A DNA stretch of 64,000 bases from Nguyenibacter vanlangensis (lineage in GTDB: Bacteria; Pseudomonadota; Alphaproteobacteria; Acetobacterales; Acetobacteraceae). The notes under the pieces are model-generated. The model saw nothing but the letters and a program-made list of their open reading frames with translations, was not told the origin of the DNA and searched no databases. Every line of letters begins with the position of its first letter. Positions within the stretch are counted from its first letter, which is position 1. The stretch lies in the NCBI RefSeq assembly GCF_038719015.1, contig NZ_CP152276.1, forward strand, positions 1,932,001-1,996,000. Direction: 5' to 3'. This document shows, one piece after another, positions 33,427 to 50,437 of the stretch. The translations under genes and the position numbers were made by a program.

Positions 33427-33433
33427 AGCGCCC

Positions 33434-33700
33434 TCACCCGACCAGATGGGTGGGATAGCGCAGATGCCGCCGCACCACGTCGACGAACGCGGGATCCCGC
33501 TTGGCCGCCCAGACCGCGGCGAGATGGCCGACCAGCCAGAAGATCCCGCCGGCGATCCACAGCCGCAGCCCGAGGCCGACTGCCGCCGACAGCGTGCCGT
33601 TGACGATCGCCACCGCGCGCGGCGCCCCGCCGAGCAGGATCGGCTCGATCAGGGCGCGATGCACCGGGGCAGTGAAGCCGGGGATGGTGTCCGGTTCCAT
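33434..33700 (-). CDS. trbD: TrbD, VirB3-like membrane protein
   Basis: This 88-residue protein has two adjacent hydrophobic segments (APRAVAIVNGTLSAAVGLGL, WIAGGIFWLVGHLAAVW) after a short N terminus (GFTAPVHRALIEPILLGG), the TrbD/VirB3 pattern. The ATG at 33700 shares one base with the trbC stop, which fixes the start inside a longer open frame. Confidence 0.9.
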   Translation of the reverse strand: MEPDTIPGFTAPVHRALIEPILLGGAPRAVAIVNGTLSAAVGLGLRLWIAGGIFWLVGHLAAVWAAKRDPAFVDVVRRHLRYPTHLVG

Positions 33701-34026
33701 CAGATGAGTGCCCCGCCCGAGAAGGAGAAGAAGGACAGGAAGAAGCTGGACGCGGCGAAGGCGATCGACAGGCCGAAGACGATCTGGATCAGGCGGCGGA
33801 AGCCGCCCGACGTCTCGCCGAAGGCCAGGGTCAGACCGGTCACGGTAATGATGATCACCGAGATGATCTTGGCCACCGGCCCCTGCACGGATTCCAGGAT
33901 CTCGTTGAGCGGGGTTTCCCACGGCATGCTGGAGCCCGAGGCGTAGGCCGGCGCCGACAGCAGGGCGAGCGAGAGGGTGGCGCCAGCCACGGCAAAGCGG
34001 TGGCGCAGGGCAATCATGCTTGTCAT
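33700..34026 (-). CDS. trbC: TrbC, VirB2-like pilin
   Basis: This 108-residue prepilin has a long signal peptide ending APAYASGS and two hydrophobic helices (VAKIISVIIITVTGLTLAFG, LIQIVFGLSIAFAASSFFLS), as in TrbC/VirB2. The TraF peptidase encoded at 57594-58136 would mature and perhaps cyclise it. The ATG at 34026 overlaps the trbB stop (ATGA). Confidence 0.92.
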   Translation of the reverse strand: MTSMIALRHRFAVAGATLSLALLSAPAYASGSSMPWETPLNEILESVQGPVAKIISVIIITVTGLTLAFGETSGGFRRLIQIVFGLSIAFAASSFFLSFFSFSGGALI

Positions 34027-34991
34027 GACGGATCTCCGGCGGATGCGAGGATGTAGTCCCCGTCCGGGGCCAGGCCCCCGACGGTGGCGAGTTCGGCCAG
34101 CCGACGTGCGTTGCCGCGCCCGGACAGCACCGCGATCACGTCGATGGTCTCGGCGATCAGGGCGCGCGGCACGGTGACGACGGCTTCCTGGATCAGCTGC
34201 TCCAGCCGACGCAGGGCGCCGATCGCCGAACCCGCATGCAGGGTGCCGACGCCGCCGGGATGGCCGGTGCCCCAGGCCTTGAGCAGGTCCAGCGCCTCGG
34301 CGCCGCGCACCTCGCCGATCGGAATCCGGTCGGGACGCAGGCGCAGCGAAGAGCGCACCAGGTCGGAGAGCGAGGCTGCACCGTCCCTGGTGCGCAGGGC
34401 GACCAGATTGGGGGCCGCGCATTGCAATTCGCGGGTGTCCTCGATCAGCACCACCCGGTCGCCAGTCTGCGCGATCTCGGCCAGCAGGGCATTGACCAGT
34501 GTGGTCTTGCCGGTGGAGGTGCCGCCGGCAACCAGGATGTTCTTCCGCTCGGCGACGGCGCGGCGCAGAAACGCGGCCTGTGCGGCGGTCATGATCCCGG
34601 ACGCCACGTAATCGTCGAGCGAGAACACCGCGATGGCCGGGCGCCGGATCGCGAAGCAGGGCGCGGCCACTACTGGCGGCACCAGCCCCTCGAACCGCTC
34701 CCCGCTTCCCGGCAGCTCGGCGGAGACACGCGGACTGCCCGGATGGACCTCGGCCCCGACATGGTGGGCGACCAGGCGGACGATCCGCTCGGCGTCGGCG
34801 GGCGTGATCCGGGTGCCGGTGTCCTCCATCCCGCCGGCCAGCCGGTCGATCCACAGTCGACCATCGGGATTGAGCATCACCTCGGCGATCGACGGATCAT
34901 CGAGATGCCCGGCAATTGCCGGGCCGAGGGCGGTGCGCAGCATGCGCGTGCCACGGGCGACGGCTTCGGAACGGAAGGGAGCAACGGACAC
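34023..34991 (-). CDS. trbB: TrbB, VirB11-like secretion ATPase
   Basis: This 322-residue hexameric ATPase has Walker [12 protein letters not shown], the Asp box ([12 protein letters not shown]) and a Walker B/His-box region ([30 protein letters not shown]). The GTG start at 34991 has only a weak ribosome site. In uninterrupted clusters trbB follows copG; here a 15-kb insertion on the other strand separates them, so trbB may now depend on a new promoter. Confidence 0.93.
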
Positions 34992-35307
34992 AGGAAACCC
35001 CGCATTTGACCTCCCAAGGGAGGCGATGGATCAGCGGGGTCGATTAGAAAGAGGCAGGAACACGGAAGCGCAACAAGTCTCTGGGGCCGTAGGGCGCTGG
35101 GATAGAAGAACTTGCATAGGAGTAAAGTGCGTTTGGGCGATGACGGGGCGACAGGGCGCTGCTACCGTTTTCTGGAATCGACCACGACACGGACCTGCAT
35201 GACCAGGCCTTACCCACCGGCATTCTAGCGGCGGCTCCACCCCGCGCACGAAGCGTGATATGCATATTTCAGAGTATCACCCACGAAGATGGCGTCGAAA
35301 AGAGTCT
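34992..35307. other. Non-coding left border of the DISARM island
   Basis: No credible gene lies in this 316-bp gap. It must hold the promoter of the drmD operon (plus) and possibly a new one for trbB (minus). ACCCCGC (34997-35003) pairs with GCGGGGT (35034-35040), enclosing CCTCCC-AA-GGGAGG (35010-35023): a nested dyad directly upstream of trbB. I see no obvious direct repeat matching the right border. Confidence 0.45.
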
Positions 35308-38300
35308 ATGACTGCCGGCCGTAAAGACATTCAGGAAGGCGATTTTGTCGAAGTGCGAGGCAAGCCTTGGCTTGTCGAAGCATTGGTTGGCGACGATAGC
35401 GACCTACCCGCCTTAAGTCTGTCCTGCATTTCGGATGACGCCCAGGGCGAGCGGCTTGACGTCCTCTGGGACGCCGAGATTGCCAGAAGGGTCCTCGACG
35501 AGGATCGATGGTCGAATGTGGGTGTGGGCTCTCCCGACAGCGCGGATGTTCTGGCGGCGCATATCCGGGCGATCCGATGGCGCTCCGCGACAGCCGCCGA
35601 TCGGGACCTGTTGCAAGCGCCGTTTCGCGCCGGGATCAGGCTTGATGCCTATCAGCTTCTCCCTCTTCGCAAGGCGTTGCGTCTGCCGCGCGTCAATTTG
35701 CTGATCGCCGACGATGTCGGTCTCGGCAAGACGATCGAAGCGGGCCTTGTCGCGCGGGAACTCCTGCTCAGACGGCGGGTGGACTTCATCGTGATCGCGG
35801 CGCCGCCGGCGATGACGGTCCAGTGGAAGGACGAGTTGGAGGCGAAGTTCGGCCTCTCCTTCGAGATCATAGACCGGGACCGCATCAGCGATCTGCGGCG
35901 CCTACGGGGGTTCTCCGTCAATCCGTGGACCACGGGTTCACGCTTTATCGTGTCGCATCGCCTGCTGACCGATGAAACCTATGCTGCGGGCCTGCGCGAT
36001 GTCCTCGATGAATTTCGGGCGAAGGCTTTGTTCGTTCTGGACGAGGCCCACCACGCGGCCCCATCCGCAGGCACGCGTTACGCCGTTTCCAGCCAGCTCA
36101 CGAAAGCGGTTAGGGAACTCGCGGAACGCTTCGAGCACCGGCTGTTCCTGACCGCCACACCTCATAACGGGCATTCCAACAGCTTTTCCGCCCTTCTCGA
36201 AATGCTCGACCCGCAACGCTTCACGCGCGGTGTCGAGGTCCGGCCGCGCGATCTGGATCCGGTCATGGTGCGCCGGCTGAAGGCCGATCTCCGCCGTCTC
36301 GGCGAGGCCTTCCCGGAACGAGTGGTCGAGCCGATCCCGATCAACGGCCTGCCGGAAGATGCTCCCGAACTGGCGCTCGCACGACTGCTCGCCGCCTATG
36401 GCGAACTGCGCATGAAGCGCATCGCGAAGCTGAGCAGTCAGAAGGCGGCGCTCGCCAAGCTGGCCTTTGTCGGCCTTCAGCAGAGGCTTCTGTCGTCGAC
36501 CGCCGCCTTCGCCCGAACGCTGAAGACCCATCGCGTCACCCTGCAAAAAGTGCTGGACGGCGAAGAGATCGCGCGCGCGACGGCGGCAGCAACCGCGTTC
36601 GTGACAGCCCCGACACCGGAGGACAACATCGAACTGGGCTTGGAAGAGGAAGACGCCGAAAAGGCGATGGCCGCCGATGAAGATGCGGAAGCGGCCACGG
36701 CCTCTGCGGCTGGCGTCGTCGACGCCACGCTTGAGGACTTGCGCGCCGAATTGGCGATCGTCGATGAGATGCTCGCGCTGGCCGAAAAGCATGCCGCTCG
36801 GCCCGACGCGCGCGTCAACTGGCTGATTGGGTGGATCCGCAAGTCCATGTTGGACGGCCGGCAGTGGAATCGCCGCCGGCTGATCATCTTCACCGAGTGG
36901 GAGGATACGAGGCGCTGGCTGGAAAGGCGGTTGCGGGAAGCGCTGGCTGATACCGATGACATTGACGAACGGATCGGTGTCTTCAGCGGCACCACGGGGT
37001 CGGATCGCCGCGAGCAGATCAAGCACGCCTTCAACGCCGATCCCGATGGGGAGCCCTTGCGGGTTCTGATCTGCACCGATGCAGCACGGGAGGGCATCAA
37101 CCTTCAATCTTACTGCTCGGACCTCCTGCATTTCGATCTGCCGTGGAATCCGTCGCGCCTGGAGCAGCGGAACGGCCGTATCGATCGCAAGCTCCAGCCT
37201 GCAAAGCAGGTCTTCTGTCGCTACTTCCGGTACGAGCAACGCGAGGCGGACATTGTTCTCGACGCGCTGGTCTGGAAGACGGAGACCATTCGCGAGGAAC
37301 TCGGCTCAGTCGGGCAGGTCATCGAGGATCGCATCGCCAAGCGGCTGGCCGAAGACGGCATCGGGCACGGACAGGGAAAGGCGCTCGCTCATGCCATCTC
37401 CAATGAGAACGACACGGAGCGGCTCGGCACGGCCCAGTCGGAAATGGACGACGAGGCGAAGGCCCGCCACGAGCGCCTTCTGAAGGAACAAGACGATCTG
37501 AGACGAGTCCTTGAACGCTCCCGCGAGAGGGTCGGCGTCGATCCCGACGATCTTAAGCGGGTCGCTGCCGCCGCGCTGTCGCGCGCGGGCTTCGCCCTCG
37601 ATAACGCGCGCGGCCAGAGCGTCGGCAGGACCGATACCTATCGGCTGGATCCGTCCGATCCTACGTTCTCCAAGGACGCAGGGTGGGATGACGCCTTCGA
37701 CGATCTACGTGTCCGGCCGCGCAAGCGCGGTGAGCGGCTGGGCGATTGGCGGCGCAACGCTCCGATCCGGGCGATCGCTTTCGAGCCTCCGGTTCTCGAT
37801 GATGGTCGCGATGCGACTGACGTCGTGCAGGTGCATCTGGAGCATCGCCTAGTCAGGCGTCTCATATCCCGCTTTTTGAGTCAGGGGTTCCAGTCGAACT
37901 TATCCCGGCTTTCGGTGATCATCGGCCCCGGCGCCCAGCCGCGCGTGGTGCTAATGGGCCGCCTCGCCGTTTATGGCGCCGGCGCGGCCCGGCTGCATGA
38001 GGAGATCATTCCGATCACGGCCATCTGGACGGAGTCCGAACGTGGCCAAAAGCCGCTCCGAGCGCTGGGAGAGAGTGGCGAGGAAAGAACGCTCAACCAA
38101 CTCGAGGAGGCGCTGCGCATCGCGCGCGAAGCCCCCGCCTCCGCAGTGACACGGATACAGGCCCTCGTCGCTCAAGACATAGCTGACCTAACCCCCGCCC
38201 TCGAAACCATCGCGAACGAACGCCTTGCCACGGTCAAAGCCCAGCTCGCCAAGCGGGGAGACGAGGAGGCGCACTCACTCCATGCTCTTCTGGAGAATCA

Positions 38301-38541
38301 AAAGAAAAACATTCTTAAGGCAGTAGAGAAGCACAATCCCAATCAGCCAGATCTTTTTGAAGAGGAAAGGCGGGAGCATCAAGCCAATCGCCGGTATTGG
38401 GACGTTCGTCTCACCAGCATAGAAAATGAAATTCGCGACGAGCCACAGCGTCTGCGCGGCTCCTATGAAGTGAAGGCCCATCGGCTGGAGCCGGTCGGCA
38501 TCGTCTATCTCTGGCCGGTGTCGGGTGAGCGCGATGGCTGA
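35308..38541 (+). CDS. drmD: DrmD, DISARM SNF2-like helicase
   Basis: This 1077-residue SF2 helicase begins with a small N-terminal domain (GDFVEVRGKPWLVE). The motor shows a Q-like RLDAYQLLPL, Walker A DDVGLGKT at 135-142, DEAH at 245-248 and FLTATPHNGH. The second RecA domain has IIFTEWEDTRRWL and DAAREGINLQ, with LEQRNGRIDR as motif VI. Its length and position before an Eco57I-like methyltransferase identify it as DrmD of class 1 DISARM. The ATG at 35308 is used; an in-frame ATG at 35260 would add 16 residues and neither has a good ribosome site. The last bases overlap drmMI. The C-terminal 350 residues, rich in charged helices, are typical of the family. Confidence 0.85.
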   Translation: MTAGRKDIQEGDFVEVRGKPWLVEALVGDDSDLPALSLSCISDDAQGERLDVLWDAEIARRVLDEDRWSNVGVGSPDSADVLAAHIRAIRWRSATAADRDLLQAPFRAGIRLDAYQLLPLRKALRLPRVNLLIADDVGLGKTIEAGLVARELLLRRRVDFIVIAAPPAMTVQWKDELEAKFGLSFEIIDRDRISDLRRLRGFSVNPWTTGSRFIVSHRLLTDETYAAGLRDVLDEFRAKALFVLDEAHHAAPSAGTRYAVSSQLTKAVRELAERFEHRLFLTATPHNGHSNSFSALLEMLDPQRFTRGVEVRPRDLDPVMVRRLKADLRRLGEAFPERVVEPIPINGLPEDAPELALARLLAAYGELRMKRIAKLSSQKAALAKLAFVGLQQRLLSSTAAFARTLKTHRVTLQKVLDGEEIARATAAATAFVTAPTPEDNIELGLEEEDAEKAMAADEDAEAATASAAGVVDATLEDLRAELAIVDEMLALAEKHAARPDARVNWLIGWIRKSMLDGRQWNRRRLIIFTEWEDTRRWLERRLREALADTDDIDERIGVFSGTTGSDRREQIKHAFNADPDGEPLRVLICTDAAREGINLQSYCSDLLHFDLPWNPSRLEQRNGRIDRKLQPAKQVFCRYFRYEQREADIVLDALVWKTETIREELGSVGQVIEDRIAKRLAEDGIGHGQGKALAHAISNENDTERLGTAQSEMDDEAKARHERLLKEQDDLRRVLERSRERVGVDPDDLKRVAAAALSRAGFALDNARGQSVGRTDTYRLDPSDPTFSKDAGWDDAFDDLRVRPRKRGERLGDWRRNAPIRAIAFEPPVLDDGRDATDVVQVHLEHRLVRRLISRFLSQGFQSNLSRLSVIIGPGAQPRVVLMGRLAVYGAGAARLHEEIIPITAIWTESERGQKPLRALGESGEERTLNQLEEALRIAREAPASAVTRIQALVAQDIADLTPALETIANERLATVKAQLAKRGDEEAHSLHALLENQKKNILKAVEKHNPNQPDLFEEERREHQANRRYWDVRLTSIENEIRDEPQRLRGSYEVKAHRLEPVGIVYLWPVSGERDG

Positions 38542-41500
38542 TGCTCTCTACCGCGATCGGGACCTCGAATGGCTCGATCACGTCAAGCCGGTCGGGCTGG
38601 TCGTAGCACCCAGCGTTCTCAAGGAATTGGGCCTGACGCCGCTGCATCAGAGCCCCGTCGATACCGCCGAGGCCGCCGAGCGCCTCAATCCGGATGAGCC
38701 CGGACCGGCGCTGCCCGATCCTTGGGCCTTCATGGAACAGGTGCTCGGCTGGAACGCCGCCCATGTCGCGGGAGCGCCAGGCGGACCGGAGCTGCCGGAC
38801 ACTTTGGTTGTGAGCCTGCCCGAGCAAGCGACGACACTGGCGCCGACCTGGGCCGTCGCTGAACTCGGCCAGAACGGCCAGCCTTGGCAGCTACTCGTCC
38901 GCATCGAGGTACCCGGCATCGAGCCTGATGGCCGCGCTCAGCTCGACGGTTGGGAAGCCTCGCCGCATCAGCGCTTCGAGCGGCTGCTGAGGGACACCGG
39001 CGTATTCGCCGGGCTGCTGATCACCGATCAGGAGCTGCGTCTCGTCTATGCCCCGCGCGGCGAGACGTCCGGCTATCTCGCCTTCCCGCTGCGCCCGCTT
39101 GGGCTCGTGGCCGGACGGCCAATGCTCGGCGGGCTGAAGCTGCTTCTCGACAGCTTCCGCCTGTTCTCGGACGCGGACGAGCGCCGCCTTCCTGCTCTCC
39201 TGAAGAAGAGCCGTGACGCCCAGGCGTCGGTCTCGACTGAACTCGCTGGCCAGGTCCTCGGCGCGCTGCATGAGCTGCTCCGTGGCCTCGATGCGGCCGA
39301 TGCCGATTTGGTGCGGGAACTGGCGCGGTCGAACCCCGGCCACCTTTACGAGGGGCTGCTCACCGTTCTCATGCGGCTGGTCTTCATCCTCTATGCCGAG
39401 GATCGCGATCTGCTGCCGTCACGCGCCGACGCCCGCGCGCGGGGGATCTATGAGACCAGCTATTCGGTCCGCGGCCTCTACGCGAGGCTCGCCGAGGACG
39501 CCGCGCTCAACCCGGACACCATGGACGAGCGGTGCGGCGGTTGGGGGCAGTTGCTCGTGCTCTTCCGGTTGATCCACAAGGGGCATCCGTCGCACTTCGT
39601 TCAAGCGCGCGGCGGCAAGCTCTTCGATTCCGACGAGTTCCCCTTCCTGGAAGGCCGCGCCGCCAAGGACGATGCGCCGCGTATCCTGAGCGTGTCGGAC
39701 GGGTGCATTCTGCGCATCCTTGAAGGGCTGATGACCCTGAAGCTGCGCGGGCATGAGCGCGAGCGCCTGTCCTACCGCACGCTGGATGTCGAACAGATCG
39801 GCTCGGTCTACGAGACGGTGATGGGCTTCACCGTCGAGGCGGCCAGGAGCAGCGTAATCGCAATCAAAGCCGGCAAGAACAACCGGACGCCAGTGTTTGT
39901 GGCCCTCGACGAACTGCTGGCCCGCAAGGGCAAGGACCGGATCAAGGACCTGAAGGAGAATGTTGGCCGGTTGCTTACGCCCGCGCAGGCGAAGCCCGTC
40001 GAGGCTGCGAAGAGCGTCGAGGAACTGGCCGCGGCCTTCGAGGGCATGGTGGATGAGCGCGGATCGCCGCGCCACGTCATGGCGCCAGCGGGAACGCCGA
40101 TCCTCCAGCCGACCGGCGAGCGCCGCCGCACTGGCAGTCACTATACACCGCGCAGCCTGACCCAGCCGATCGCCGCCCACGCGCTGGAACCGGCTTTCTC
40201 GCGGCTGGGGCCGGATGCGACGCCGGAACAGATTCTCGATCTGAAGGTCTGCGATCCGGCGATGGGTTCGGGCGCGTTTCTGGTGGAGGCCTGCCGCACC
40301 ATCGCTACGCGGCTGGTCAACGCTTGGCTCCGTTGGCCCGAGAAACGGCCGACGATCCCGCTTGATGAAGACGAGGATCTGCACGCCCGCCGCCTTGTCG
40401 CACAGAACTGCCTTTACGGTGTGGACAAGAATCCCCGCGCGGTCGATCTGGCGCGGCTGTCTCTATGGTTGGCGACACTGGCTAAAGATCACGAGTTCAC
40501 CTTCCTCGATCATGCGTTGAAATGCGGGGACAGCCTGGTAGGCCTCAATACCCAGCAGCTGAGCGGCGGAAACTGGGACAATGCCCGGGTGCGCAGCACT
40601 CTTATCGGGCAGGCCGTCAGCGAGCGCGTGGCGAAGCTGGCCGCGCATCGCGACGCAATCCGCAATGCGCCCGACGACGTTTCGCTGGCAATCCAGCAAT
40701 CCCGCCACGCCATCGCGGAGAACGAAGCGGCGCTGGTCCGCCTGATCGGCGATGCGATCGTCGCTGCCTTCTTTAAGAACGATAAGGCCAAGCAGCGGAT
40801 TGACGAGGTGCGTTACGTTACCACCATGGCGGGCACCACCAATTGGTGGGATGGCCTGCGCAATATCGCTGTCTCGTTGGAGGGCGGAGAGCATCCTATC
40901 CGGCCCTTTCACTGGGAAGTGGAATTTCCCGAAGTGTTTGGGCGGGAGAATCCCGGCTTCGACGCTATCGTCGGCAATCCGCCTTTCGCCGGAAAGAACA
41001 CGACTATTGCCGGAAATCGCGCGAACTACTTGCCTTGGCTGCAAACGCTGCATCCGGGCGCGCATGGGAATGCCGATCTTGTCGCGCATTTCTTCCGCCG
41101 CGCCTTCGGGCTCTTGCGGGACGGCGGAACCTTTGGGCTGATCGCGACCAATACCATCGGACAGGGCGACACCCGCGACACCGGGCTGACGACGATACTC
41201 CGCGAGGGTGGTACGATCATGCGGGCGACCCGGCGGCTGAAATGGCCCGGCGAAGCTGCGGTGGTCGTCAGCGTGGTGCATGTGCTCAAGGGTGCAGTAG
41301 CCTCGCCGGTGCTTGACGGCAGGCGGGTGCGGCGGGTTTCGGCCTATCTGGTCGAGGGCGATCTCGACACCGCGCCCGAGCGTCTGACGGCAAATGCGCG
41401 CAAGGCATTTGTCGGTTCCTATGTGCTCGGCATGGGCTTTACTTTCGACGACGTGGCAGCGGCCAAGGGCGAGGCCGAAAGCCTTGAGACGATGCGCGCG

Positions 41501-42547
41501 CTGATCGACAAAGACGCGCGCAATGCGGAGCGGATTTTCCCCTATATTGGCGGTGAGGAGGTCAATACCTCGCCGACCCACGCCTATCGTCGCTATGTGA
41601 TCGACTTCTTCGACAGACCACTCAGGCGGGATTCCTCGTTGATGTCCTGGTTCCTCAACGAAGGTTCAGACGCTTGCGGCAAACGCCGCCGAGAGTGGTT
41701 ACGAGATGGGATCGTGCCAAGTGATTATCCGGACGAGGTCGCGGAGGACTGGCCTGATCTGATCGAGATCGTGCGGCGCCGAGTGAAGCCTGAACGCGAT
41801 CCGCAAAAGCGTGATGCTCTGCGTGTCCGCTGGTGGCAATATGCGGAAAAACGTCCTGGGCTCTATCGCGCTATTGCACCATTGGACCGGGTGTTGGTTC
41901 GATCGCTGACAAGCGCTCACTTTCCGACTTTCTCTTGGCTACCCCACGCTTATGTCTACGATCAGACCAACATAGTCTGGGCTTCAGAGTGCTTTGGAAT
42001 GCAAGCGGCGCTTTCATCACGGGCGCACGAGATTTGGGTGCGTTTTCTTGGCGCGACCATGAAGGACGATAGTCGATACAACATTGCCGACTGTTTCGAG
42101 ACTTTCCCATTCCCGGAAGGTTTCGAAACCTTGCCCGTACTCGAAGCTGCCGGGAGGACTTATCACGATCACCGCGCCGAGCTGATGGTCGCCCGCAACG
42201 AGGGCATGACCAGGACCTACAACCGCTTCCAGGATCGGCATGACAACGCCGCCGACATCGTGCGGCTGCGCGACCTGCACACCGAAATGGATCGCGCGGT
42301 GCTCGAAACTTATGGCTGGCACGATCTCGCCGCCCGCGTCGTGCCGATCTTCCTCGACGAGTCCAACGAAGACGACCACACCTATCAGGGCCGCCTTTTC
42401 TGGCCCTCCGAGTTCCGCGACGAAGTTCTCGCTCGCCTTCTCGCGCTCAATGCCGAACGCCATGCCGAGGAAATGCGCCGGGACTTGGCGGGACAACCGG
42501 GCACCGAAGACGACGAGCAGGCTCAGGAAGACGAGCTTATCGAGTAA
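38534..42547 (+). CDS. drmMI: DrmMI, DISARM class 1 adenine-N6 methyltransferase
   Basis: This 1337-residue Eco57I-like methyltransferase has a SAM-binding motif DPAMGSGAFLVEACR from residue 574 and the catalytic NPPF at 815-818 (VGNPPFAGKN). Long N-terminal and C-terminal regions probably recognise the target. No nuclease motif is evident. In DISARM it marks host DNA so that the DrmAB(D) machinery spares it. The ATG at 38534 overlaps the drmD stop by 8 bases (a GTG at 38525 is an alternative), so translation is coupled. Confidence 0.87.
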   Translation: MADALYRDRDLEWLDHVKPVGLVVAPSVLKELGLTPLHQSPVDTAEAAERLNPDEPGPALPDPWAFMEQVLGWNAAHVAGAPGGPELPDTLVVSLPEQATTLAPTWAVAELGQNGQPWQLLVRIEVPGIEPDGRAQLDGWEASPHQRFERLLRDTGVFAGLLITDQELRLVYAPRGETSGYLAFPLRPLGLVAGRPMLGGLKLLLDSFRLFSDADERRLPALLKKSRDAQASVSTELAGQVLGALHELLRGLDAADADLVRELARSNPGHLYEGLLTVLMRLVFILYAEDRDLLPSRADARARGIYETSYSVRGLYARLAEDAALNPDTMDERCGGWGQLLVLFRLIHKGHPSHFVQARGGKLFDSDEFPFLEGRAAKDDAPRILSVSDGCILRILEGLMTLKLRGHERERLSYRTLDVEQIGSVYETVMGFTVEAARSSVIAIKAGKNNRTPVFVALDELLARKGKDRIKDLKENVGRLLTPAQAKPVEAAKSVEELAAAFEGMVDERGSPRHVMAPAGTPILQPTGERRRTGSHYTPRSLTQPIAAHALEPAFSRLGPDATPEQILDLKVCDPAMGSGAFLVEACRTIATRLVNAWLRWPEKRPTIPLDEDEDLHARRLVAQNCLYGVDKNPRAVDLARLSLWLATLAKDHEFTFLDHALKCGDSLVGLNTQQLSGGNWDNARVRSTLIGQAVSERVAKLAAHRDAIRNAPDDVSLAIQQSRHAIAENEAALVRLIGDAIVAAFFKNDKAKQRIDEVRYVTTMAGTTNWWDGLRNIAVSLEGGEHPIRPFHWEVEFPEVFGRENPGFDAIVGNPPFAGKNTTIAGNRANYLPWLQTLHPGAHGNADLVAHFFRRAFGLLRDGGTFGLIATNTIGQGDTRDTGLTTILREGGTIMRATRRLKWPGEAAVVVSVVHVLKGAVASPVLDGRRVRRVSAYLVEGDLDTAPERLTANARKAFVGSYVLGMGFTFDDVAAAKGEAESLETMRALIDKDARNAERIFPYIGGEEVNTSPTHAYRRYVIDFFDRPLRRDSSLMSWFLNEGSDACGKRRREWLRDGIVPSDYPDEVAEDWPDLIEIVRRRVKPERDPQKRDALRVRWWQYAEKRPGLYRAIAPLDRVLVRSLTSAHFPTFSWLPHAYVYDQTNIVWASECFGMQAALSSRAHEIWVRFLGATMKDDSRYNIADCFETFPFPEGFETLPVLEAAGRTYHDHRAELMVARNEGMTRTYNRFQDRHDNAADIVRLRDLHTEMDRAVLETYGWHDLAARVVPIFLDESNEDDHTYQGRLFWPSEFRDEVLARLLALNAERHAEEMRRDLAGQPGTEDDEQAQEDELIE

Positions 42548-42557
42548 CCCAGCGCCA

Positions 42558-42578
42558 CCGGCCCGAAATCAGGGCCGG
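42558..42578. terminator. Hairpin between drmMI and the convergent DUF2188 gene
   Basis: CCGGCCC (42558-42564), loop GAAATCA, GGGCCGG (42572-42578): a perfect 7-bp stem between two convergent reading frames, overlapping the last codons of the minus-strand gene. It could end the drmD-drmMI transcript, which would make the downstream genes a separate unit. No T tract follows. Confidence 0.5.
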
Positions 42579-42772
42579 CGCCACTTATCGGGATGAGCCC
42601 GATTCGTGTTGCGGACGCGCTCGACAAGCACGTCGCCGCCGCGCTCTTGAGCCCAGTCGATCGCCGCGCCCTGTGTCGGCCGCACGACGCTCGCCCGCTC
42701 GGAGCCGGGCTTGCGAACCGCGTAGTCGCCCGTCTCGGGGCGACGCTCGATGAACATTCTCTTGTCAGCCAT
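42569..42772 (-). CDS. DUF2188-family small protein
   Basis: This 67-residue protein resembles DUF2188: a short beta strand (FIERRPETGDYAVRKPGSERAS), a helix (PTQGAAIDWAQERGG) and a strand ending VLVERVRNTNRAHPDKW. GGGAG lies about 8 bases before the ATG at 42772. It is the only gene of the DISARM island on the minus strand. Its promoter overlaps the palindrome shared with the XRE-ImmA gene. DUF2188 proteins are of unknown function and frequent on mobile elements. Confidence 0.7.
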   Translation of the reverse strand: MADKRMFIERRPETGDYAVRKPGSERASVVRPTQGAAIDWAQERGGDVLVERVRNTNRAHPDKWRRP

Positions 42773-42821
42773 GGGGAAAACTCCCAATTGGGTTCACCGC
42801 CCGAATCGGCGGCCTGATCGC

Positions 42822-42859
42822 AATATAATCTTGCAATCTAGAGTCCGCAAGATTATCCA
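42822..42859. promoter_or_regulatory. Divergent promoter and palindromic operator, DUF2188 / XRE-ImmA
   Basis: ATAATCTTGC (42825-42834) and GCAAGATTAT (42847-42856) form a perfect 10-bp inverted repeat with a 12-bp spacer. On the minus strand TTGCGG (42845-42850) and TATATT (42822-42827), 17 bp apart, form a good promoter for DUF2188; on the plus strand TTGCAA (42831-42836) and TATCCA (42854-42859), also 17 bp apart, form a weaker one for the regulator. The operator covers both, so one bound repressor would silence both. Confidence 0.7.
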
Positions 42860-42878
42860 GCATCCAGGAGACAGCAGC

Positions 42879-43991
42879 ATGACCAATCTCATTGGAGCGC
42901 GGATCAAGGCCCTGCGGGAGGAACGAAGCCTCTCTCAGGACGACCTCGCGCGCCTCTTCGGCTTCAAGGATCGGCAGACGGTCTCCGCTATCGAGACCGG
43001 CGAGCGCCGCGTCACGGCGGACGAACTGCTCCTTGCCGTCGAGAAGCTCGGGACGTCGCTCGACTATTTCACCGATCCCTTCCTGTTGGTCGGCGAAGGA
43101 CGCTTTTCTTGGCGGCAGACCAATGTCGGCTCGGGTGTTCTGAACGGCTATGAGCGCAGCGCAGGCCGTTGGATCGCGGCCTTTCGGGTGATCGCGCCCC
43201 AGGTCGGGAGGGCGAGCCCATTGCTGCGCCGGGCCCTCGGCCTGACGCGCCACTCGCGGTTCGAGGATGCGATGGAGGCCGGCGAGCGCTTCGCGGCCGA
43301 GTTCGATCTCGGTGAGGTGCCCGCCCAGCGTCTGGCCGAGGTGACGGAGCGCGAGCTAGGGATACTCGTGCTCATGGTCGATGCCTTTGAGGGCATCTCG
43401 GGCGCCGCCTGCCGTCTGCCGGAGCTGGATGTCGTGCTGATCAATCGTCACGAGGTGGAGGGCCGGCGTCACTTCGACTTGGCGCACGAGCTGTTCCACA
43501 TCCTCACCTGGGATGCGATGCCGCCCGAGCACTCGGAGGAAGCCAAGGAGGTCGGTGGCAACCGCGTCGAGCAGCTCGCCAACAATTTCGCTTCGGCGGT
43601 GCTCATGCCGAAGACCGCGCTCGCGCGCTATGGTGAATGGGCGGAGCTTGGCGACGACGACCTCATTGCAAAGCTCAATGCCACCGCCGATGAATTGCTG
43701 GTCACGGCTTCCGCGCTCAAATGGCGGCTGGTCGCACTTGACCGGCTGAAGCCGGTGCGTGCGCGCGCGATCTCCGACGCGGCGCTGCGAAACAACGGGC
43801 ACAATGGACGCGGGGCGCCCAAGGTCGTGCCGCCACTTCTGTTCTCGAAGCCATTCATGGAAGTGATCGCCCTCGCAATCGACGAGGGCCGGGTTTCGAC
43901 CCGCCGCGCTGCGGGCCTGCTCGATCTCACTGTCGAGGACCTGACGGACCTCTTCGTTGCGCACGGGGTCGAGCCCCCGGCCGAGCTATGA
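42879..43991 (+). CDS. XRE HTH plus ImmA/IrrE metallopeptidase regulator
   Basis: This 370-residue fusion has an XRE helix-turn-helix in residues 4-60 (IKALREERSLSQDDLARLFGF; TVSAIETGERR) and an ImmA/IrrE (COG2856) zinc peptidase domain with HELFH at 203-207 and the follow-up helix EQLANNFASAVLMPK. Such proteins bind DNA and can cleave themselves or a partner repressor in response to a signal. AGGAG lies before the ATG at 42879. The gene is followed after 7 bp by the PIN gene. Together they resemble Xre-COG2856 toxin-antitoxin-like pairs. It probably controls itself, DUF2188 and, through the operon, drmA-drmB. Confidence 0.85.
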   Translation: MTNLIGARIKALREERSLSQDDLARLFGFKDRQTVSAIETGERRVTADELLLAVEKLGTSLDYFTDPFLLVGEGRFSWRQTNVGSGVLNGYERSAGRWIAAFRVIAPQVGRASPLLRRALGLTRHSRFEDAMEAGERFAAEFDLGEVPAQRLAEVTERELGILVLMVDAFEGISGAACRLPELDVVLINRHEVEGRRHFDLAHELFHILTWDAMPPEHSEEAKEVGGNRVEQLANNFASAVLMPKTALARYGEWAELGDDDLIAKLNATADELLVTASALKWRLVALDRLKPVRARAISDAALRNNGHNGRGAPKVVPPLLFSKPFMEVIALAIDEGRVSTRRAAGLLDLTVEDLTDLFVAHGVEPPAEL

Positions 43992-43998
43992 GGCGACC

Positions 43999-44514
43999 AT
44001 GGCGCGGCACCGCGGGCCAGTTCTGGTCGACACGAACGTCATTCTCGAATCCCACCGGATCGGCGCATGGGCGGCGCTAGCCGGTGGCTATCCGGTCGAG
44101 ACGGTCGAGGACTGCGTGACCGAGACCCAGACGGGTTTCCAACGGCGGCGGGCGGAGCAGCAGATTGATGCAGCGGCCCTGCGTGCGTCGCTGGCGGGGG
44201 TTCACGCGCCGGGAGATCGCGAGATTGCGGCAGCGGTCGTGAGAGCGCCCGACATTGCGCTGGACATCGGTGAGCGCTCGCTCTGGGCGCACGCGCTGAC
44301 CCGGACCGATGGCTGGATCCTGTGCGGGCCGGACAAGGCCAGTCTGCGCTTCGGCGTCCGGCTCGGCCATCGTGATCGGCTTGTCGCCTTGGAGCGGCTT
44401 CTCGAAGACGCAGGCTATCGGCCGAAGGAACCCCTGAAACTGGCGTACACGAGCAAGTGGCTGGAGAAGACTCTCGGCGAGCTTGTCCTTTCGGAAGGAG
44501 TGGGCCGGACATGA
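43999..44514 (+). CDS. PIN-domain protein (putative ribonuclease)
   Basis: This 171-residue protein begins with the PIN signature VLVDTNVILE (first acidic residue Asp near position 10). Further candidate metal ligands are the glutamate in CVTETQ, the acidic pair in DIGERSLWAHAL and the aspartate in ILCGPDKASLRFG. PIN proteins are Mg2+-dependent ribonucleases and common toxins. The ATG at 43999 is 7 bp after the regulator stop; the stop overlaps the drmA start (ATGA). Its setting inside DISARM, between an XRE-ImmA regulator and drmA, suggests an abortive or regulatory RNase. Which acidic residues are catalytic is inferred. Confidence 0.72.
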   Translation: MARHRGPVLVDTNVILESHRIGAWAALAGGYPVETVEDCVTETQTGFQRRRAEQQIDAAALRASLAGVHAPGDREIAAAVVRAPDIALDIGERSLWAHALTRTDGWILCGPDKASLRFGVRLGHRDRLVALERLLEDAGYRPKEPLKLAYTSKWLEKTLGELVLSEGVGRT

Positions 44515-47500
44515 CAAGCTCAGTCGACATTCGCGCTCATCTCGTCGATCTGTTTCGCCGCGATCTCATCGGCCCCGGCCCGCAGGACGCCGATCTTGCG
44601 ACCGAGCGGCTGAATGAGAGCCCTTCGCGCTGGTATTTGACCGGCTTCCTCGCGCCGGCTGAAGATCCGCTCGGTCTTGAAGGCGAGGATGACGACGACG
44701 ATCCATCGGCCCAGGAGGAAATGGAGATCGACGTCGAGGAGTCCGACACCGACGGCGCTGGAGGCGCGGCTGGCGACAATGAGGAGCCGGAGACGCCAAA
44801 CACCAAGCGTCGATTTCTTCCTTCATCCATCGGATTGACGGTTCTACTCGCGCCGGATGTCACCGAGATCGAAGCGCTTGTCTCTTGGGGCGACTACCGC
44901 ACTGAGCCACCCCTGCCGGAAAGCGTGCTGTTGCCCGAGCCGCTTCCAGAAGAAGAAGTCGGCGAGGACGGCAAGCCCAAGCGCGGCGCGCGACCGATGG
45001 TGGACTGGGTTCGCATACCCAAGGCACAGACGGTGCGCGTTCCGGTCGTGGATGGGCGCGGCGTGCCGGTTGTCGTCCCCGAGAGTGCCGCTGAGCAGCG
45101 GCGCGGCGGCGGGCTGGTGTTGGAGACCCACTCTCGGCTGTTCAGCTACCAGACCCCGGAGGGGACGACGGAGACAGTCCGCGCGCTCACGGTCTTTCTC
45201 GTGAACCGCCGCCTGACGGTCCATCGGTTTTACTCCGACGTCAGCTTCATATTCCAGGCGCGGCTCGAACTCGTTTGCGAGCGTGGCTTCCGTCCTCGTC
45301 GCGACCTCTCCGGCTACAATTCGCAGGACTGGGATTTGCGGGTCGGCGATCTCCACTATCGCGATGTTCTTGAATGGGCAGTGGGTCGCAACATTGCCGC
45401 TGATTGGGAGACCAGCGAGGAATGGAATGCGCCAGTTAAGCGCGTCTGGACCAATCCCCTGCCGACTGCCGAGGTGGAGCGGGTCGCGCCCAACGAGGAT
45501 GCCAGCCTGAAGACCGCCGTCACCTTCGGCATGGAGCCTCTGGCGCAAGTCGCGGACGCCGGAGGCGCGGCTCTGGCGCAGGCGCTCGGCCAGCTCCCAA
45601 AGCTCTACGAGCTATGGATCGACGCGGAACGGCTCAAGCTGCCGTCGCTCGCGCCGCGACGCGGCCAGACCGGTGCCCATCTGATTGCCGAGATGGAGGC
45701 GGCGAAAGACCGGATCGCCGCCGGTATTCAACTCCTGGCGCAGAACGACAAGGCGCGCTCGGCATTCCGGTTCATGAACCTTGCAGTCGCCATGGCGGCG
45801 CGCCGCAGGAATGCTGGCGCTTCGGGGGACCCGCAAGCGATGCCGACGCCAACGTGGCGACCGTTCCAGCTTGCCTTCATCCTGCTCAATCTCTCCGGGC
45901 TGGCGGAGCGGACGCATCCGGATCGCGAGATCGCCGATCTCTTGTTCTTCCCAACCGGCGGCGGCAAGACGGAGGCCTATCTCGGTCTCGCTGCCTTTGT
46001 CATCGCCCATCGACGCCTCTCGGGGGCGGGCTTGCTTGGGGCAGGTGTGGCCGTGATCATGCGCTACACCCTGCGGTTGCTGACGCTCGATCAGTTGGCC
46101 CGTGCCGCCGGCGTAGTTTGCGCGCTCGAATTGATGCGGACCGATCCGGCCAATGCCAGCGAGCAAGGCCGCTGCTTACTCGGTGATTGGCCGATCGAGA
46201 TCGGCCTGTGGGTCGGTTCGGATGCGTCGCCCAACAGGCTCGGGGGGCGTGGCAAGTCGGACGAAACCACGGCTGTCGGTCGGGTGCGGCGTTTTCGGAA
46301 CGGTCGAGACAAACGCGCGCCAGCGCCGCTAAAGGCGTGCCCTTGGTGCGGCACGGAATTCACGCCTTCGTCCTTCGCCTGCATGCCTAACGAGCACGCA
46401 CCGACAAACCTTGAGATACGCTGTGCCAATTCGAATTGCGACTTCAGCCGCAATCGGCCACTGCCTGTCCTCACGGTTGATGAGCCGATCTACCGGCGCT
46501 TGCCCGCATTCCTGATCGCGACGGTGGACAAGTTCGCGGCGCTCCCCTGGGTGGGTGAGACCGGCGCCTTCTTCGGTCATGTCGATCGCTTCGCGGCTGG
46601 CGCGGGCTTCTACGGTGCGGCCGAGCCAGGCGAAGGGCAGCCTTTAGGCAACGGTTGGTCGCTCGACCCGCCCGACCTCATCATCCAGGACGAGCTGCAC
46701 CTCATTTCCGGTCCGCTCGGAACGGTCGCGGGCCTCTACGAAGCGGCGATCGACCAGTTGGCGTCCCGTCGATACGGCGAGCGTGTCGTGCGCCCGAAGA
46801 TCGTCGCTTCGACCGCGACGGTGCGCCGAGCCACGGACCAGATCGCCGCTTTGTTCGATCGCAAGACGACCAGTATCTTCCCGCCCTCCGGGATCGATCG
46901 GACTGACAGCTTTTTCGCCCGGACCGTGCCGGCGACCAAAGACCCGGCACGTATGTATATGGGCATCGCCGCCCAGGGCCGGGGGCCGAAGCTGGTGTTC
47001 CTACGGTCGCTTACCAGTTTGCTGGCAGCGGCGCAGGCTGAGTTCGATGCCAATACCGTAGCCGGTGGCGGCAGCAATCCGGCCGATCCTTACATGACCG
47101 CTGTCTGCTACTTCAACGCGCTGCGCGAGTTGGGCGGAGCGCGGAGGATCGTTGAGGATGAGGTCCGGGATCGCGCGGCGCGCTACGGGGCGCAGCGCCA
47201 CCGGATCGACCCTCCCGATCGTCCCTTTGCCGATCGACGCATTAAGGAACCGATGGAGCTGACTTCGCGCGTTTCGACGGATGAGGTCGCGAAGGCCAAG
47301 CAACGGCTGGAACTGCGCTTTGGGGCGGGGGCCGATCCTGTCGACGTGGCGCTTGCCACGAACATGATCTCGGTCGGTCTCGACATCACCCGCCTCGGTC
47401 TCATGCTCGTCCAAGGGCAGCCGAAGACAGCGGCAGAGTATATTCAGGCGACCAGTCGAGTCGGCCGCGATCCCGGACGCCCTGGATTGGTGTTGGCGGT

Positions 47501-48056
47501 GCTGAATATGCACAAGCCACGCGACCGCATGCACTTTGAGCAATTCGGCCAATTCCACCGGACGTTCTATCGCGCTGTCGAGGCCACCAGCGTAACACCC
47601 TGGGCTGCTCGCGCGCTGGATCGCGCGCTTGCGGCTGTCGTCGTCGCAGCGGCACGGCATATCGATTCGACGCTGACGCCCGAGACGGCCGTCGTCGCCT
47701 TCAAGAATAACCCGGCAGTACGGACTACTGTCCGCAATGCGATCCTGGCGCGAGCCCCCGCAAGCATGGTCGCGGGCGGCCACGCGACATTGGGTGCCGC
47801 GATAGATGCTATCGCCGATGCCTGGATCACAACCGCCGATGATCAATCGGCAGGAGGCAACACATTTGCCTACGCCCAGAAGAAGAGCCCCCACCGCTTG
47901 CTGCACATGCCGCTCGATGGGGCGATCCCGAACCTTTCCGATCAACACCGGTTGTTTGTGGCAGGACGATCAATGCGGGACGTGGAGGCCAGCGTCGATT
48001 TGAAGGTCCGTGACCCTCGCGGCCAAAAGATAGCCAATGCGGATGACCTCGCATGA
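44511..48056 (+). CDS. drmA: DrmA, DISARM helicase
   Basis: This 1181-residue protein has DrmA hallmarks: an acidic N-terminal insert (residues about 60-95), Walker A PTGGGKT at 481-487, the unusual Walker B QDELHLISG (DELH at 727-730), a zinc ribbon formed by Cys610/Cys613 and Cys638/Cys643, and motif VI QATSRVGRD starting at 979. DrmA forms the DNA-binding DrmAB complex that recognises phage DNA with a 5' overhang. Its ATG overlaps the PIN stop and its stop overlaps drmB (ATGA both times), so PIN-drmA-drmB are translated as a coupled unit. Confidence 0.87.
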   Translation: MTSSVDIRAHLVDLFRRDLIGPGPQDADLATERLNESPSRWYLTGFLAPAEDPLGLEGEDDDDDPSAQEEMEIDVEESDTDGAGGAAGDNEEPETPNTKRRFLPSSIGLTVLLAPDVTEIEALVSWGDYRTEPPLPESVLLPEPLPEEEVGEDGKPKRGARPMVDWVRIPKAQTVRVPVVDGRGVPVVVPESAAEQRRGGGLVLETHSRLFSYQTPEGTTETVRALTVFLVNRRLTVHRFYSDVSFIFQARLELVCERGFRPRRDLSGYNSQDWDLRVGDLHYRDVLEWAVGRNIAADWETSEEWNAPVKRVWTNPLPTAEVERVAPNEDASLKTAVTFGMEPLAQVADAGGAALAQALGQLPKLYELWIDAERLKLPSLAPRRGQTGAHLIAEMEAAKDRIAAGIQLLAQNDKARSAFRFMNLAVAMAARRRNAGASGDPQAMPTPTWRPFQLAFILLNLSGLAERTHPDREIADLLFFPTGGGKTEAYLGLAAFVIAHRRLSGAGLLGAGVAVIMRYTLRLLTLDQLARAAGVVCALELMRTDPANASEQGRCLLGDWPIEIGLWVGSDASPNRLGGRGKSDETTAVGRVRRFRNGRDKRAPAPLKACPWCGTEFTPSSFACMPNEHAPTNLEIRCANSNCDFSRNRPLPVLTVDEPIYRRLPAFLIATVDKFAALPWVGETGAFFGHVDRFAAGAGFYGAAEPGEGQPLGNGWSLDPPDLIIQDELHLISGPLGTVAGLYEAAIDQLASRRYGERVVRPKIVASTATVRRATDQIAALFDRKTTSIFPPSGIDRTDSFFARTVPATKDPARMYMGIAAQGRGPKLVFLRSLTSLLAAAQAEFDANTVAGGGSNPADPYMTAVCYFNALRELGGARRIVEDEVRDRAARYGAQRHRIDPPDRPFADRRIKEPMELTSRVSTDEVAKAKQRLELRFGAGADPVDVALATNMISVGLDITRLGLMLVQGQPKTAAEYIQATSRVGRDPGRPGLVLAVLNMHKPRDRMHFEQFGQFHRTFYRAVEATSVTPWAARALDRALAAVVVAAARHIDSTLTPETAVVAFKNNPAVRTTVRNAILARAPASMVAGGHATLGAAIDAIADAWITTADDQSAGGNTFAYAQKKSPHRLLHMPLDGAIPNLSDQHRLFVAGRSMRDVEASVDLKVRDPRGQKIANADDLA

Positions 48057-49918
48057 CCAAGAACGCACAGCGTCTGAGCCAACTGATTTCCACCTTCGGG
48101 CCGGGAGCCATGATCGACTTGCCGACAAGGTCGGTTGTGGTCGCCGGGCTCGAATTTTGGGACATGCCGCCCACCTCTTTCGCGACCATCTCGGAGCCGC
48201 GGCTGACGGCGAGACTGGAACAGATCCTCAAGGATCAGGGACGTCTAGACCCGAACAGCAGCCTGTCTCTGCGCACCCCGCCGATTGCACCGGACAGCCC
48301 GACCGCACTGCCAGCCGGAGTTACCGCGCCGATCTTCCCGACATGGTTCGTCTGTGAGTTGGCCGACGTCTTGACCGTGGGCTCCGGAACGATCCGGCGC
48401 CGTCGTCTCGTGCGATGGCAGGACCTGGACACCAGAGGGCGCCGTCGCTTCATTTTTGACGACGGGCGAAAATCGGATGTGACACCAATCCGGTTCGTAG
48501 CAGCTTGCGAAAAAGGCCATTTGCAGGACATCGACTGGCGGTGGGTCGTCCATGGGCCGGTCCAGTGCCAGGAGCCGCTTTGGGTCGAGGAAAAAGGGAC
48601 GAGCGCGGACCCTGCCGACACGAGCATCGTATGCGGCTGCGGTAAGAACCTTTCGCTTCAGGACGCCTTCCAACCTGGGCGTTTGGGGAAATGCCAGGGC
48701 GAGCGGCCCTGGTTGCTGGATCGGGATCCTGACGGCTGCGGGGAAAATCTGAAGCTTCTCACCCGGACAGCTACGAACACCTACTTCCCGCAAGTCTACA
48801 CGGTTATCTCGTTACCGAGCGCGGTGGATGATTTGACCCGATTGGTTGGTGAACTCGCAGGCGAACTGACGAACGTCGCGTCAGCCCAGGACGTCGCTAT
48901 AGCCAAGAAATTCAACAACAAAGTATCCGCGTCGCTCGGCACTTACAGTGACGATGAGATTTTCGAACGCCTCGAACGCCTTCGTGCGGGAGCACAGGCC
49001 GATGCGTCCCGGTCTCCCAAGATGTCCGAGTTCGACGTGTTCGCGAGTGGCCACCAACAAATCGGGCAAAATCACCCGACAGCCAAGCTCTACGCGGAAA
49101 CTCTTCCGCGGACGGCATGGGTTGACTCAAGTGTCAGTGTTGACACCTCGGCCATAAAGAACCTCGTCGCCGTTCATCGCCTGAGAGAGGTGTCGAGCCT
49201 GTACGGCTTCACGCGATTCGAAGCCGCACCCACGAGTTCGGACGGCGACATCGAGGACATCCAACTGGCCGTTCGCGGTGCGCCGATCTCGCGGGGAGCA
49301 GACTGGTTGCCTGCCATCGAGCAATTCGGCGAAGGGCTCTTCATCCACATTGACGAGCAGGCGGTGAACCGCTGGCTTCAGACCCCTGACGTCGTCAGCC
49401 GCCAGGCAAGTCTGCTTCGCGGTTACGGACATTGGCGTACCAGATTCTCTGGAGGCGCCCCGAACTATCCGGGAACGGCCTATACGCTGCTCCACTCGCT
49501 CTCTCATGCCTTGATGGCCGAGATCGCGCTCGACAGCGGATATCCCGCGAGTTCTCTGAAGGAACGCATCTACGCACTCAGTGACGCCGGCAACGGCGGT
49601 GTTCCTGTGAGATGCGGAATCTTGATCTACACGGCAACGCCCGGCGCTCAAGGTACATTGGGCGGGCTCGTCGCTGCCGGATCGCGATTCTCCAGCATTC
49701 TGCGAAGTGCGCTCGATCGGCTGATGATCTGCTCGAATGACCCGGTTTGTTCGGACCATGAGCCGGATGGCCGCAGCGGGGACAGGGCAACCCACGGTGC
49801 TGCCTGTCACGGGTGCCTGCTCATCGCGGAAACGAGTTGCGAGATGCGGAACTTGTTCCTTGACAGAAGTTTACTGATTCAAACAATGGCACATCATCAA
49901 TCAAATTTTTTCGATTGA
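48053..49918 (+). CDS. drmB: DrmB, DISARM DUF1998 protein
   Basis: This 621-residue protein starts ISTFGPGAMIDLP, the conserved DrmB opening, and ends with a DUF1998 region (LLHSLSHALMAEIALDSGYP; GILIYTATPGAQGTLGGLV). The cysteines CSNDPVC and CHGCLLIAETSC are likely zinc ligands. DrmB partners DrmA in loading onto foreign DNA. The coding region ends 84 bp before the converging copG gene; no phospholipase-D gene (drmC) follows, and none lies elsewhere in the window. Confidence 0.87.
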   Translation: MTKNAQRLSQLISTFGPGAMIDLPTRSVVVAGLEFWDMPPTSFATISEPRLTARLEQILKDQGRLDPNSSLSLRTPPIAPDSPTALPAGVTAPIFPTWFVCELADVLTVGSGTIRRRRLVRWQDLDTRGRRRFIFDDGRKSDVTPIRFVAACEKGHLQDIDWRWVVHGPVQCQEPLWVEEKGTSADPADTSIVCGCGKNLSLQDAFQPGRLGKCQGERPWLLDRDPDGCGENLKLLTRTATNTYFPQVYTVISLPSAVDDLTRLVGELAGELTNVASAQDVAIAKKFNNKVSASLGTYSDDEIFERLERLRAGAQADASRSPKMSEFDVFASGHQQIGQNHPTAKLYAETLPRTAWVDSSVSVDTSAIKNLVAVHRLREVSSLYGFTRFEAAPTSSDGDIEDIQLAVRGAPISRGADWLPAIEQFGEGLFIHIDEQAVNRWLQTPDVVSRQASLLRGYGHWRTRFSGGAPNYPGTAYTLLHSLSHALMAEIALDSGYPASSLKERIYALSDAGNGGVPVRCGILIYTATPGAQGTLGGLVAAGSRFSSILRSALDRLMICSNDPVCSDHEPDGRSGDRATHGAACHGCLLIAETSCEMRNLFLDRSLLIQTMAHHQSNFFD

Positions 49919-50002: not shown

Positions 50003-50437
50003 TTAGGAATTTTGCTCTTGGCCGATAGGCTCCAAATCCAGCCTGACCTCGTCATCCAGCGTCATCCCACGTGCGAGCCGTCGCCCGACAGCTTCAACAA
50101 AGCCGTCATATCGCTCCCGCCCCTTGCTTTGCGCCGCAGCCAAAGCCGCATCCGGCAGCGGCGGCGTGCTGGTCAGCCAGAACCGCACGAACACGGCGAG
50201 CGATTCATTGGCGATGGTGACCCGTTGTTCCATCCGCTCCAGCTGCCGCGTCATCCGGTCCAGCCGCCGGGCCAGTGCGGCTTCAAGTCGCTCCGCCCCG
50301 TCCGGCGACAGAAATGACGCCAGCGCCGTTTCCACGATCAGCGCCTGCGGTACCTTCTTGCGGGCCGCGTAATCGGCGAGCCTGACGCTGAGATCGGCGG
50401 GTAGCCGGATCGTGTGCTTGATCCGCATGGCAGTCAT
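50003..50437 (-). CDS. CopG/RHH-family protein of the traG-trb cluster
   Basis: This 144-residue protein has an N-terminal ribbon-helix-helix (KHTIRLPADLSVRLADYAARKK) and a coiled-coil-like middle (RLDRMTRQLERMEQRV). It is the CopG-type gene that routinely lies between traG and trbB. ATG at 50437 overlaps the traG stop (ATGA). In this window the downstream neighbour is not trbB but the right edge of the DISARM island. It is a probable regulator of the transfer genes. Confidence 0.85.
   Translation of the reverse strand: MTAMRIKHTIRLPADLSVRLADYAARKKVPQALIVETALASFLSPDGAERLEAALARRLDRMTRQLERMEQRVTIANESLAVFVRFWLTSTPPLPDAALAAAQSKGRERYDGFVEAVGRRLARGMTLDDEVRLDLEPIGQEQNS

Follow-up and report, generated by a model that had tools for sequence, protein, structure and literature searches.

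A conserved regulator/PIN module between drmMI and drmA of a class 1 DISARM locus

How the bacterial anti-phage system DISARM comes to be activated, and what its action is in strains that lack DrmC, are two questions raised by a locus in a stretch of 64,000 nucleotides (nt) from Nguyenibacter vanlangensis (contig NZ_CP152276.1, positions 1,932,001–1,996,000), hereafter the window. Class 1 DISARM is organised as drmD-drmMI-drmABC. The window encodes DrmD, DrmMI, DrmA and DrmB together and in the same order, but drmC was not detected, and genes for an XRE-ImmA regulator (xre-immA) and a PIN-fold protein (PIN) are inserted between drmMI and drmA behind a predicted operator of their own. The locus is an ordinary class 1 DISARM core that carries a conserved, apparently captured regulator/PIN module. 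In the explanation that we favour, with a probability of about 0.6, this module is an inducible repressor switch of drmAB combined with a held-back PIN RNase; the same estimate covers, as part of the whole, the proposal that the module splits DISARM into drmD-drmMI and xre-immA-PIN-drmA-drmB, the latter behind the module's own predicted operator. The features concerned are as follows.

35260–38541, plus strand: drmD, SNF2-like helicase (PADLOC E 5e-297; NCBIfam DISARM_DrmD 1011 bits, cut-off 610)
38525–42547, plus strand: drmMI, adenine methyltransferase with MmeI-like regions (PADLOC DrmMI 1225 bits; Eco57I, MmeI_Mtase)
42820–42856: predicted operator with the perfect inverted repeat ATAATCTTGC-N12-GCAAGATTAT at 42825–42856
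42879–43991, plus strand: xre-immA, XRE helix-turn-helix (HTH) and ImmA/IrrE metalloprotease (HTH_3 49 bits, Peptidase_M78 41 bits)
43999–44514, plus strand: PIN-fold protein of 171 aa, candidate RNase toxin (fold matches of the AlphaFold model, conserved acidic residues)
44511–48056, plus strand: drmA helicase (NCBIfam DISARM_DrmAS 1115 bits, cut-off 950)
48053–49918, plus strand: drmB, DUF1998/MZB (NCBIfam DrmB_fam 530 bits, cut-off 240; MZB match)

Recurrence of the pair and its predicted operator

A DrmA scan of one genome per species (84,980 species) gave 19 close-relative loci, 18 of them 74–87% identical and one a 94% fragment without the spot. PIN lies directly upstream of drmA in all 18 loci with the spot in view, and xre-immA precedes it in 17; the contig of the remaining locus, L006, starts inside PIN. 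Further loci with PIN before drmA were found on plasmids (L023, L024, L028) and in evenly drawn phylum genomes (L062, L063), which brings the total, including the window, to 24 DISARM loci with PIN directly before drmA, 23 of them with xre-immA before PIN. The DISARM variant with an internal regulator/PIN unit, proposed in an earlier sequence-only reading of this DNA, is thus found again in the drmA context of its relatives. That the pair is a chance insertion seen only in the window, or a misread coding region, is already refuted by this recurrence, and the conserved active-site residues and operator described below likewise leave it a practically negligible probability; because the pair recurs before drmA, we regard the locus as a variant of a known system. 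One pair-bearing, alphaproteobacterial-type DISARM lies on a contig labelled Streptomyces sp. AcH 505 (L017), perhaps a contaminant contig.

The perfect 10-nt inverted repeat of the predicted operator ends 22 nt before the immA ATG. A search for its exact pattern gave a single occurrence in the window and none in 100 shuffles, and it is present with at most two mismatches in all 23 pair-bearing DISARM loci (21 with at most one), the spacing being a constant 10 nt. Over the 23-locus alignment, identity is 0.99 and 0.91 in the two half-sites, 0.79 in the next 4 nt and 0.47 in the spacer, with 0.58 in the left and 0.36 in the right flank. As background, among 4600 random 150-base stretches taken from the same loci, true operator sites included, the pattern was matched with at most one mismatch in 22 and with at most two in 27. 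Most rows show a third half-site just upstream, of which the window has a degenerate copy. No operator was found before drmD in the 16 loci that include this stretch; the sequence of 5 others begins at or within drmD. The conserved inverted repeat sits ahead of a regulator-headed operon, and it is here that binding of the repressor is predicted.

Spacing within this operon is tight. The gap between immA and PIN is 6–7 nt in 21 of 23 loci (16 nt in L015, 3 nt in L063), and the PIN stop codon overlaps the drmA ATG by 4 nt in the window and in 17 of the 23; the two genes are 5 nt apart in L004, L005, L014 and L020 and otherwise spaced in L028 and L063, two loci with an uncertain start. In the window, drmA and drmB also overlap by 4 nt. 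The genes are inherited together as well: correlation of pairwise identity with that of drmA gave rho values of 0.81 for PIN, 0.85 for immA, 0.90 for drmB, 0.96 for drmD and 0.55 for drmMI, the last possibly lowered by rows that are fragments or split genes, against label-shuffle maxima of 0.58 for PIN, 0.72 for immA, 0.51 for drmB and 0.50 for drmMI. This operon and operator structure, which the sequence-only reading had missed, points to a further role of the unit in controlling drmAB.

The two proteins and their form outside DISARM

The HTH_3 and Peptidase_M78 scores of the regulator are both above cut-off, on a frame open from 42750 of which 42879 is the likely start. Its protease motif is HELFH (residues 203–207), and the HEXXH residues are invariant in all 38 aligned ImmA sequences. 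PADLOC matches are RmrA of RosmerTA (E 5e-18, 63 bits), capP (E 4e-15, 54 bits) and capH (E 7e-6, 25 bits). The predicted model, with a predicted local distance difference test score (pLDDT) of 86.3, has Foldseek matches to CapP (7t5t), IrrE (3dte) and PprI with single-stranded DNA (ssDNA; 8sln), at E 1e-3 to 2e-3. Judged by sequence and model, the regulator resembles CapH and CapP fused into one protein.

According to passages of the sources consulted, ssDNA activates PprI and CapP, both of which cleave a repressor (PMC10904395, PMC13373217), and CapH/CapP modules upstream of CBASS are also associated with DISARM and Pycsar, which one source takes from earlier work (PMC10693628) and another, for DISARM, credits to Lau 2022 (PMC13373217). 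CBASS and other immune operons have CapH+CapP regulators, which the window locus resembles in that an HTH repressor domain and an HEXXH-bearing ImmA/IrrE protease domain head the immune genes; it differs in that the two form one fused protein, that this is paired with a PIN gene, and that control of drmAB is here a prediction. In the C (controller) proteins of restriction-modification systems, too, an XRE-type regulator heads restriction genes. C.AhdI and C.BclI are weak relatives of the window HTH, whereas the window regulator adds an ImmA protease domain and a PIN partner.

The PIN protein of the window has no sequence match in Pfam, NCBIfam, PADLOC, PHROGs or PDB; no curated PIN family matched it at E 1, and 1 of 51 relatives matched weakly (E 0.033). 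The AlphaFold model has a pLDDT of 91.3, and its best PDB structure matches include VapC/PIN proteins. The acidic residues D11, E42, D89, E92 and D112 are each present in 145–147 of 147 sequences, so that the protein has both the fold and the conserved acidic residues of a PIN nuclease. The RNase or suicide arm postulated in the sequence-only reading is plausible in view of the modelled fold and of the free form of the module. A weak PIN match (36%, E 5e-4) was also seen within an 842-codon frame, perhaps a fusion, in L003 (G365:C2:15996-16424).

The free form of the module occurs on plasmids as well as on viral contigs. When 2.9 million viral contigs were scanned with the PIN alignment as query, 41 PIN loci were obtained, 34–53% identical, and xre-immA stands directly upstream of PIN in all of these (a few show only the immA end) except L097, where it is next door on the other strand, and L095, where PIN is at the contig edge. 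No drm gene was found in the fetched stretches around the 41 loci. Searches of viral contigs with a single PIN or DrmA sequence gave no relative, and INPHARED phages gave no PIN match. The pair also occurs without DISARM on a Rhizobium plasmid (L036) and a Burkholderia plasmid (L037), and in L061.

A 67-row PIN tree groups the DISARM copies together and apart from all viral ones but L076, which is basal, and L036 and L061 are nested inside the DISARM copies. This tree, of a short protein, suggests that DISARM captured a mobile module, which has left again in some cases. The existence of the pair apart from DISARM, both on plasmids and on viral contigs, makes it look like a captured unit of the predicted XRE-ImmA and PIN toxin-antitoxin kind. 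XRE-COG2856 operons with PIN or RelE toxins were predicted to be mobile toxin-antitoxin systems in the part consulted of Makarova 2009 (PMC2701414), and the XRE-COG2856/PIN pairing is also described in passages of the NetFlax work (PMC10440598). Our pair likewise consists of an XRE-ImmA gene adjoining a toxin-like gene as a mobile two-gene unit, in 23 of the 24 PIN-bearing DISARM loci and 39 of 41 viral loci. It shares with RosmerTA and the XRE-COG2856 and PIN systems an XRE-ImmA fusion, its best PADLOC match being RmrA, next to a toxin-like gene; it differs in its PIN family, unmatched in Pfam, NCBIfam, PADLOC and PHROGs, in being locked into DISARM, and in that its toxin is putative.

This kinship raises the question of whether the pair is simply a selfish addiction module in the operon, one that keeps the DISARM-bearing element stable and plays no part in defence. 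Both the predicted mobile toxin-antitoxin nature of such operons (in the part consulted of PMC2701414) and the position of the window DISARM among conjugation genes fit this idea; the shared predicted operator and the close coupling with drmAB, which many families have retained, point to something beyond a passenger, and a fixed place before drmA is not needed for addiction alone. We consider it unlikely.

The absence of drmC and a proposed model of drmAB control

With a profile that detects drmC in other loci, no drmC was found in positions 25001–62000 of the window, and a Nostoc DrmC query against the whole 4.75-Mb genome, in a search that had no positive control, gave no match. The sequence-only reading, which had noted that drmC was missing, is borne out, and a drmC-like protein just outside the locus, which it had named as a possible refutation, was not found in either search. 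A scan for HKD motifs in the 24 PIN loci (frames of 140 to 899 codons) gave a phospholipase D (PLD)-family protein in L024 only, where it is so annotated; other frames with a single HKD motif occur in L012, L015, L018, L021, L024 and L028, two of them annotated transposases. The annotated phospholipase D family gene of L024, a Methylocystis DISARM, lies at 8734–9867 between drmMI and the regulator and has no PADLOC or Pfam match.

A quick tree of 44 DrmA proteins contains one clade of 30 without detected drmC, 24 with PIN and 6 without; since the sequence of L006, L008 and L011 ends less than 500 nt past drmB, the absence of drmC was truly tested in 27 of the 30. The six PIN-less members, all in view, likewise have no drmC. 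One of them, L126, is basal on a long branch and unsure in placement; excluding it leaves 24 with PIN and 5 without. In L025, L027, L031, L125 and L126, clade members without the module, the drmMI and drmA frames overlap, and in L026 a different 306-codon frame replaces the pair. drmC is present in 11 loci, all outside the clade, and the tree needs at least three changes of the PIN label and at least three of the drmC label.

The sequence-only reading had supposed that PIN may take the place of the missing DrmC or supplement it. As a non-orthologous replacement, PIN would be a nuclease that DrmAB brings in for the destruction of phage nucleic acid, and two observations agree with this: none of the 44 tree loci carries both PIN and drmC (11 with drmC, 24 with PIN, three of the latter cut off after drmB), and PIN overlaps drmA by 4 nt in most pair-bearing loci. 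However, the six loci of the same clade that have neither gene indicate that the exclusivity follows one clade; the pair also occurs free of DISARM, most fold matches that bear a name are to VapC-type RNases and to PIN domains of RNA processing, and DrmC is dispensable and often missing according to the part consulted of Bravo 2022 (PMC9142583). The replacement is thus unsupported and improbable, somewhat more so than addiction. Since the six PIN-less members also have no drmC, its absence is more readily taken for a feature of the clade than for a consequence of PIN, and since drmC has been described in print as dispensable and often missing, we do not treat it as defining for class 1 DISARM.

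Our preferred explanation, an inducible switch of drmAB with a held-back RNase, starts from capture of the two-gene XRE-ImmA and PIN module between drmMI and drmA of a class 1 DISARM, where it was then kept. In the resting cell, the XRE domain would repress the xre-immA-PIN-drmA-drmB promoter and XRE-ImmA would keep PIN inactive, while the methylase would be expressed from elsewhere. When the cell is infected or its DNA is damaged, inactivation of the repressor would fall to the ImmA domain, for which ssDNA may be the trigger, as it is for CapP and PprI; both ssDNA sensing and cleavage are here proposed by analogy with these relatives. Derepression would induce DrmAB, and the freed PIN RNase, if toxic, would halt growth when DISARM is failing. 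The module probably controls drmAB and adds a second, abortive RNase layer. If this is true, a DNA-targeting defence would carry an abortive back-up inside its own operon. With the protease-repressor, the candidate PIN RNase and DrmAB under one predicted operator, both questions raised at the outset can be addressed in a single locus.

Several results weigh against this explanation. Evenly drawn samples (398 phylum genomes and 385 class genomes) give a fairer count than the species-wide DrmA scan because the latter favours close relatives, and among their 7 class 1 loci, the window excluded, the pair is present in only 2; of the other 5, three have drmC and two have neither drmC nor the pair. 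This tally, read off the loci, excludes L065 (drmD not found, drmMI-like piece truncated by the edge), L067 (a 3.4-kb contig) and DrmA-like genes without drmD and drmMI. In the class genomes, PIN was found in 3 of 385, namely the window's own, the free pair L061 and one weak match. Six members of the DrmA clade do without the module, which is therefore no essential part of DISARM. Of the 37 free modules tested, only 14 have the operator with no more than one mismatch; outside these 37, the repeat is visible in L037. A crude scan near the operator revealed no sigma-70-like promoter and no terminator. The ImmA fold match is modest: Foldseek of the XRE-ImmA model gave no match at E 0.001 or better, and a ComR regulator ranks first, with others among the same rows. 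Finally, the PIN tree does not match the DrmA tree in every respect, so that there may have been more than one capture.

Two parts of the picture are already known separately, CapH/CapP relatives near DISARM and XRE-ImmA and PIN pairs. The combination of DISARM, ImmA and PIN was not found in a literature search that did not reach Ofir 2018 or Lau 2022, and we do not claim that it is unreported; the available passages, from part of the DISARM papers that mention "PIN domain", do not describe the xre-immA/PIN pair.

The drmMI-drmA slot, the DISARM core and neighbouring genes

The slot between drmMI and drmA seems to accept defence or toxin-antitoxin cargo repeatedly. A Trichormus plasmid DISARM (L033:9880-11863) has a PtuA/AriA-like ATPase and a DUF4435 protein with a weak AriB match in this place, and in a Thiodictyon plasmid DISARM (L029:10741-11890) drmA is immediately preceded by genes for an MqsA antitoxin and a SecB-like chaperone. 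By eye, a similar frame of about 275–305 codons occupies the slot in L011:1264-2091, L013:7439-8311 and L026:11013-11930, one of these loci being without the PIN pair, and a similar protein of ~210–220 aa lies between drmMI and xre-immA in L004, L005, L014, L018, L019, L020 and L062. As the part consulted of PMC10270631 describes it, Shield ShdA lies inside Pseudomonas DISARM loci; this is likewise a foreign defence gene within a DISARM operon, though another protein (RmuC domain) in another host group.

A tentative extension, which we think possible but do not favour, is that the slot is a cargo site for abortive guards, the fused CapH-CapP/PIN module having become, in this clade, a stable added part that times drmAB and kills or arrests the cell once DISARM is overcome. 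The cell would then methylate first and restrict on an ssDNA-type signal, and the ATPase of L033, PARIS-like or Septu-like, with its DUF4435 partner, and the MqsA and SecB-like proteins of L029 would be alternative candidate guards.

In the window, the slot contains one more gene:

42569–42772, minus strand: small DUF2188 gene (Pfam PF09954 27.2 bits, cut-off 22)

Of the slot contents listed in the sequence-only reading, XRE-ImmA and PIN stand, whereas DUF2188 as a component of the unit is ruled out by its opposite strand and its presence in only 7 of the 23 loci with the slot in view.

All other genes of the locus, from drmD to drmB, are on the plus strand without internal stops. Together with the PADLOC and NCBIfam matches, this agrees with the intact drmD, drmMI, drmA and drmB in usual order described before. 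PADLOC gives no cut-off, and the NCBIfam scores of DrmD, DrmA and DrmB, the proteins covered by that run, all exceed theirs; the identity of drmMI comes from PADLOC. A second in-frame ATG at 35308 is an alternative start of drmD, which fits the start given in the sequence-only reading. The drmMI start overlaps the drmD end, and an NPPF motif is found at DrmMI residue 818. The PDB chain closest to window DrmA is 7s9v, a DrmA (562 bits), which we take to be the Serratia DrmA of the Bravo 2022 structure paper.

The locus is flanked by minus-strand genes: at 25886–34991 TrbI, TrbL, a TrbE-like ATPase and a T2SSE-type ATPase (trb-type conjugation genes), and at 50434–56430 traG and a DUF3363 relaxase. 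Placed between them, DISARM looks like cargo of an integrated conjugative element. PADLOC run on ten genes at 4968–27205 gave no defence family. At 8652–11519, a catalase gene and an AraC-type regulator gene have a G+C content of 0.50–0.54, below most of the window.

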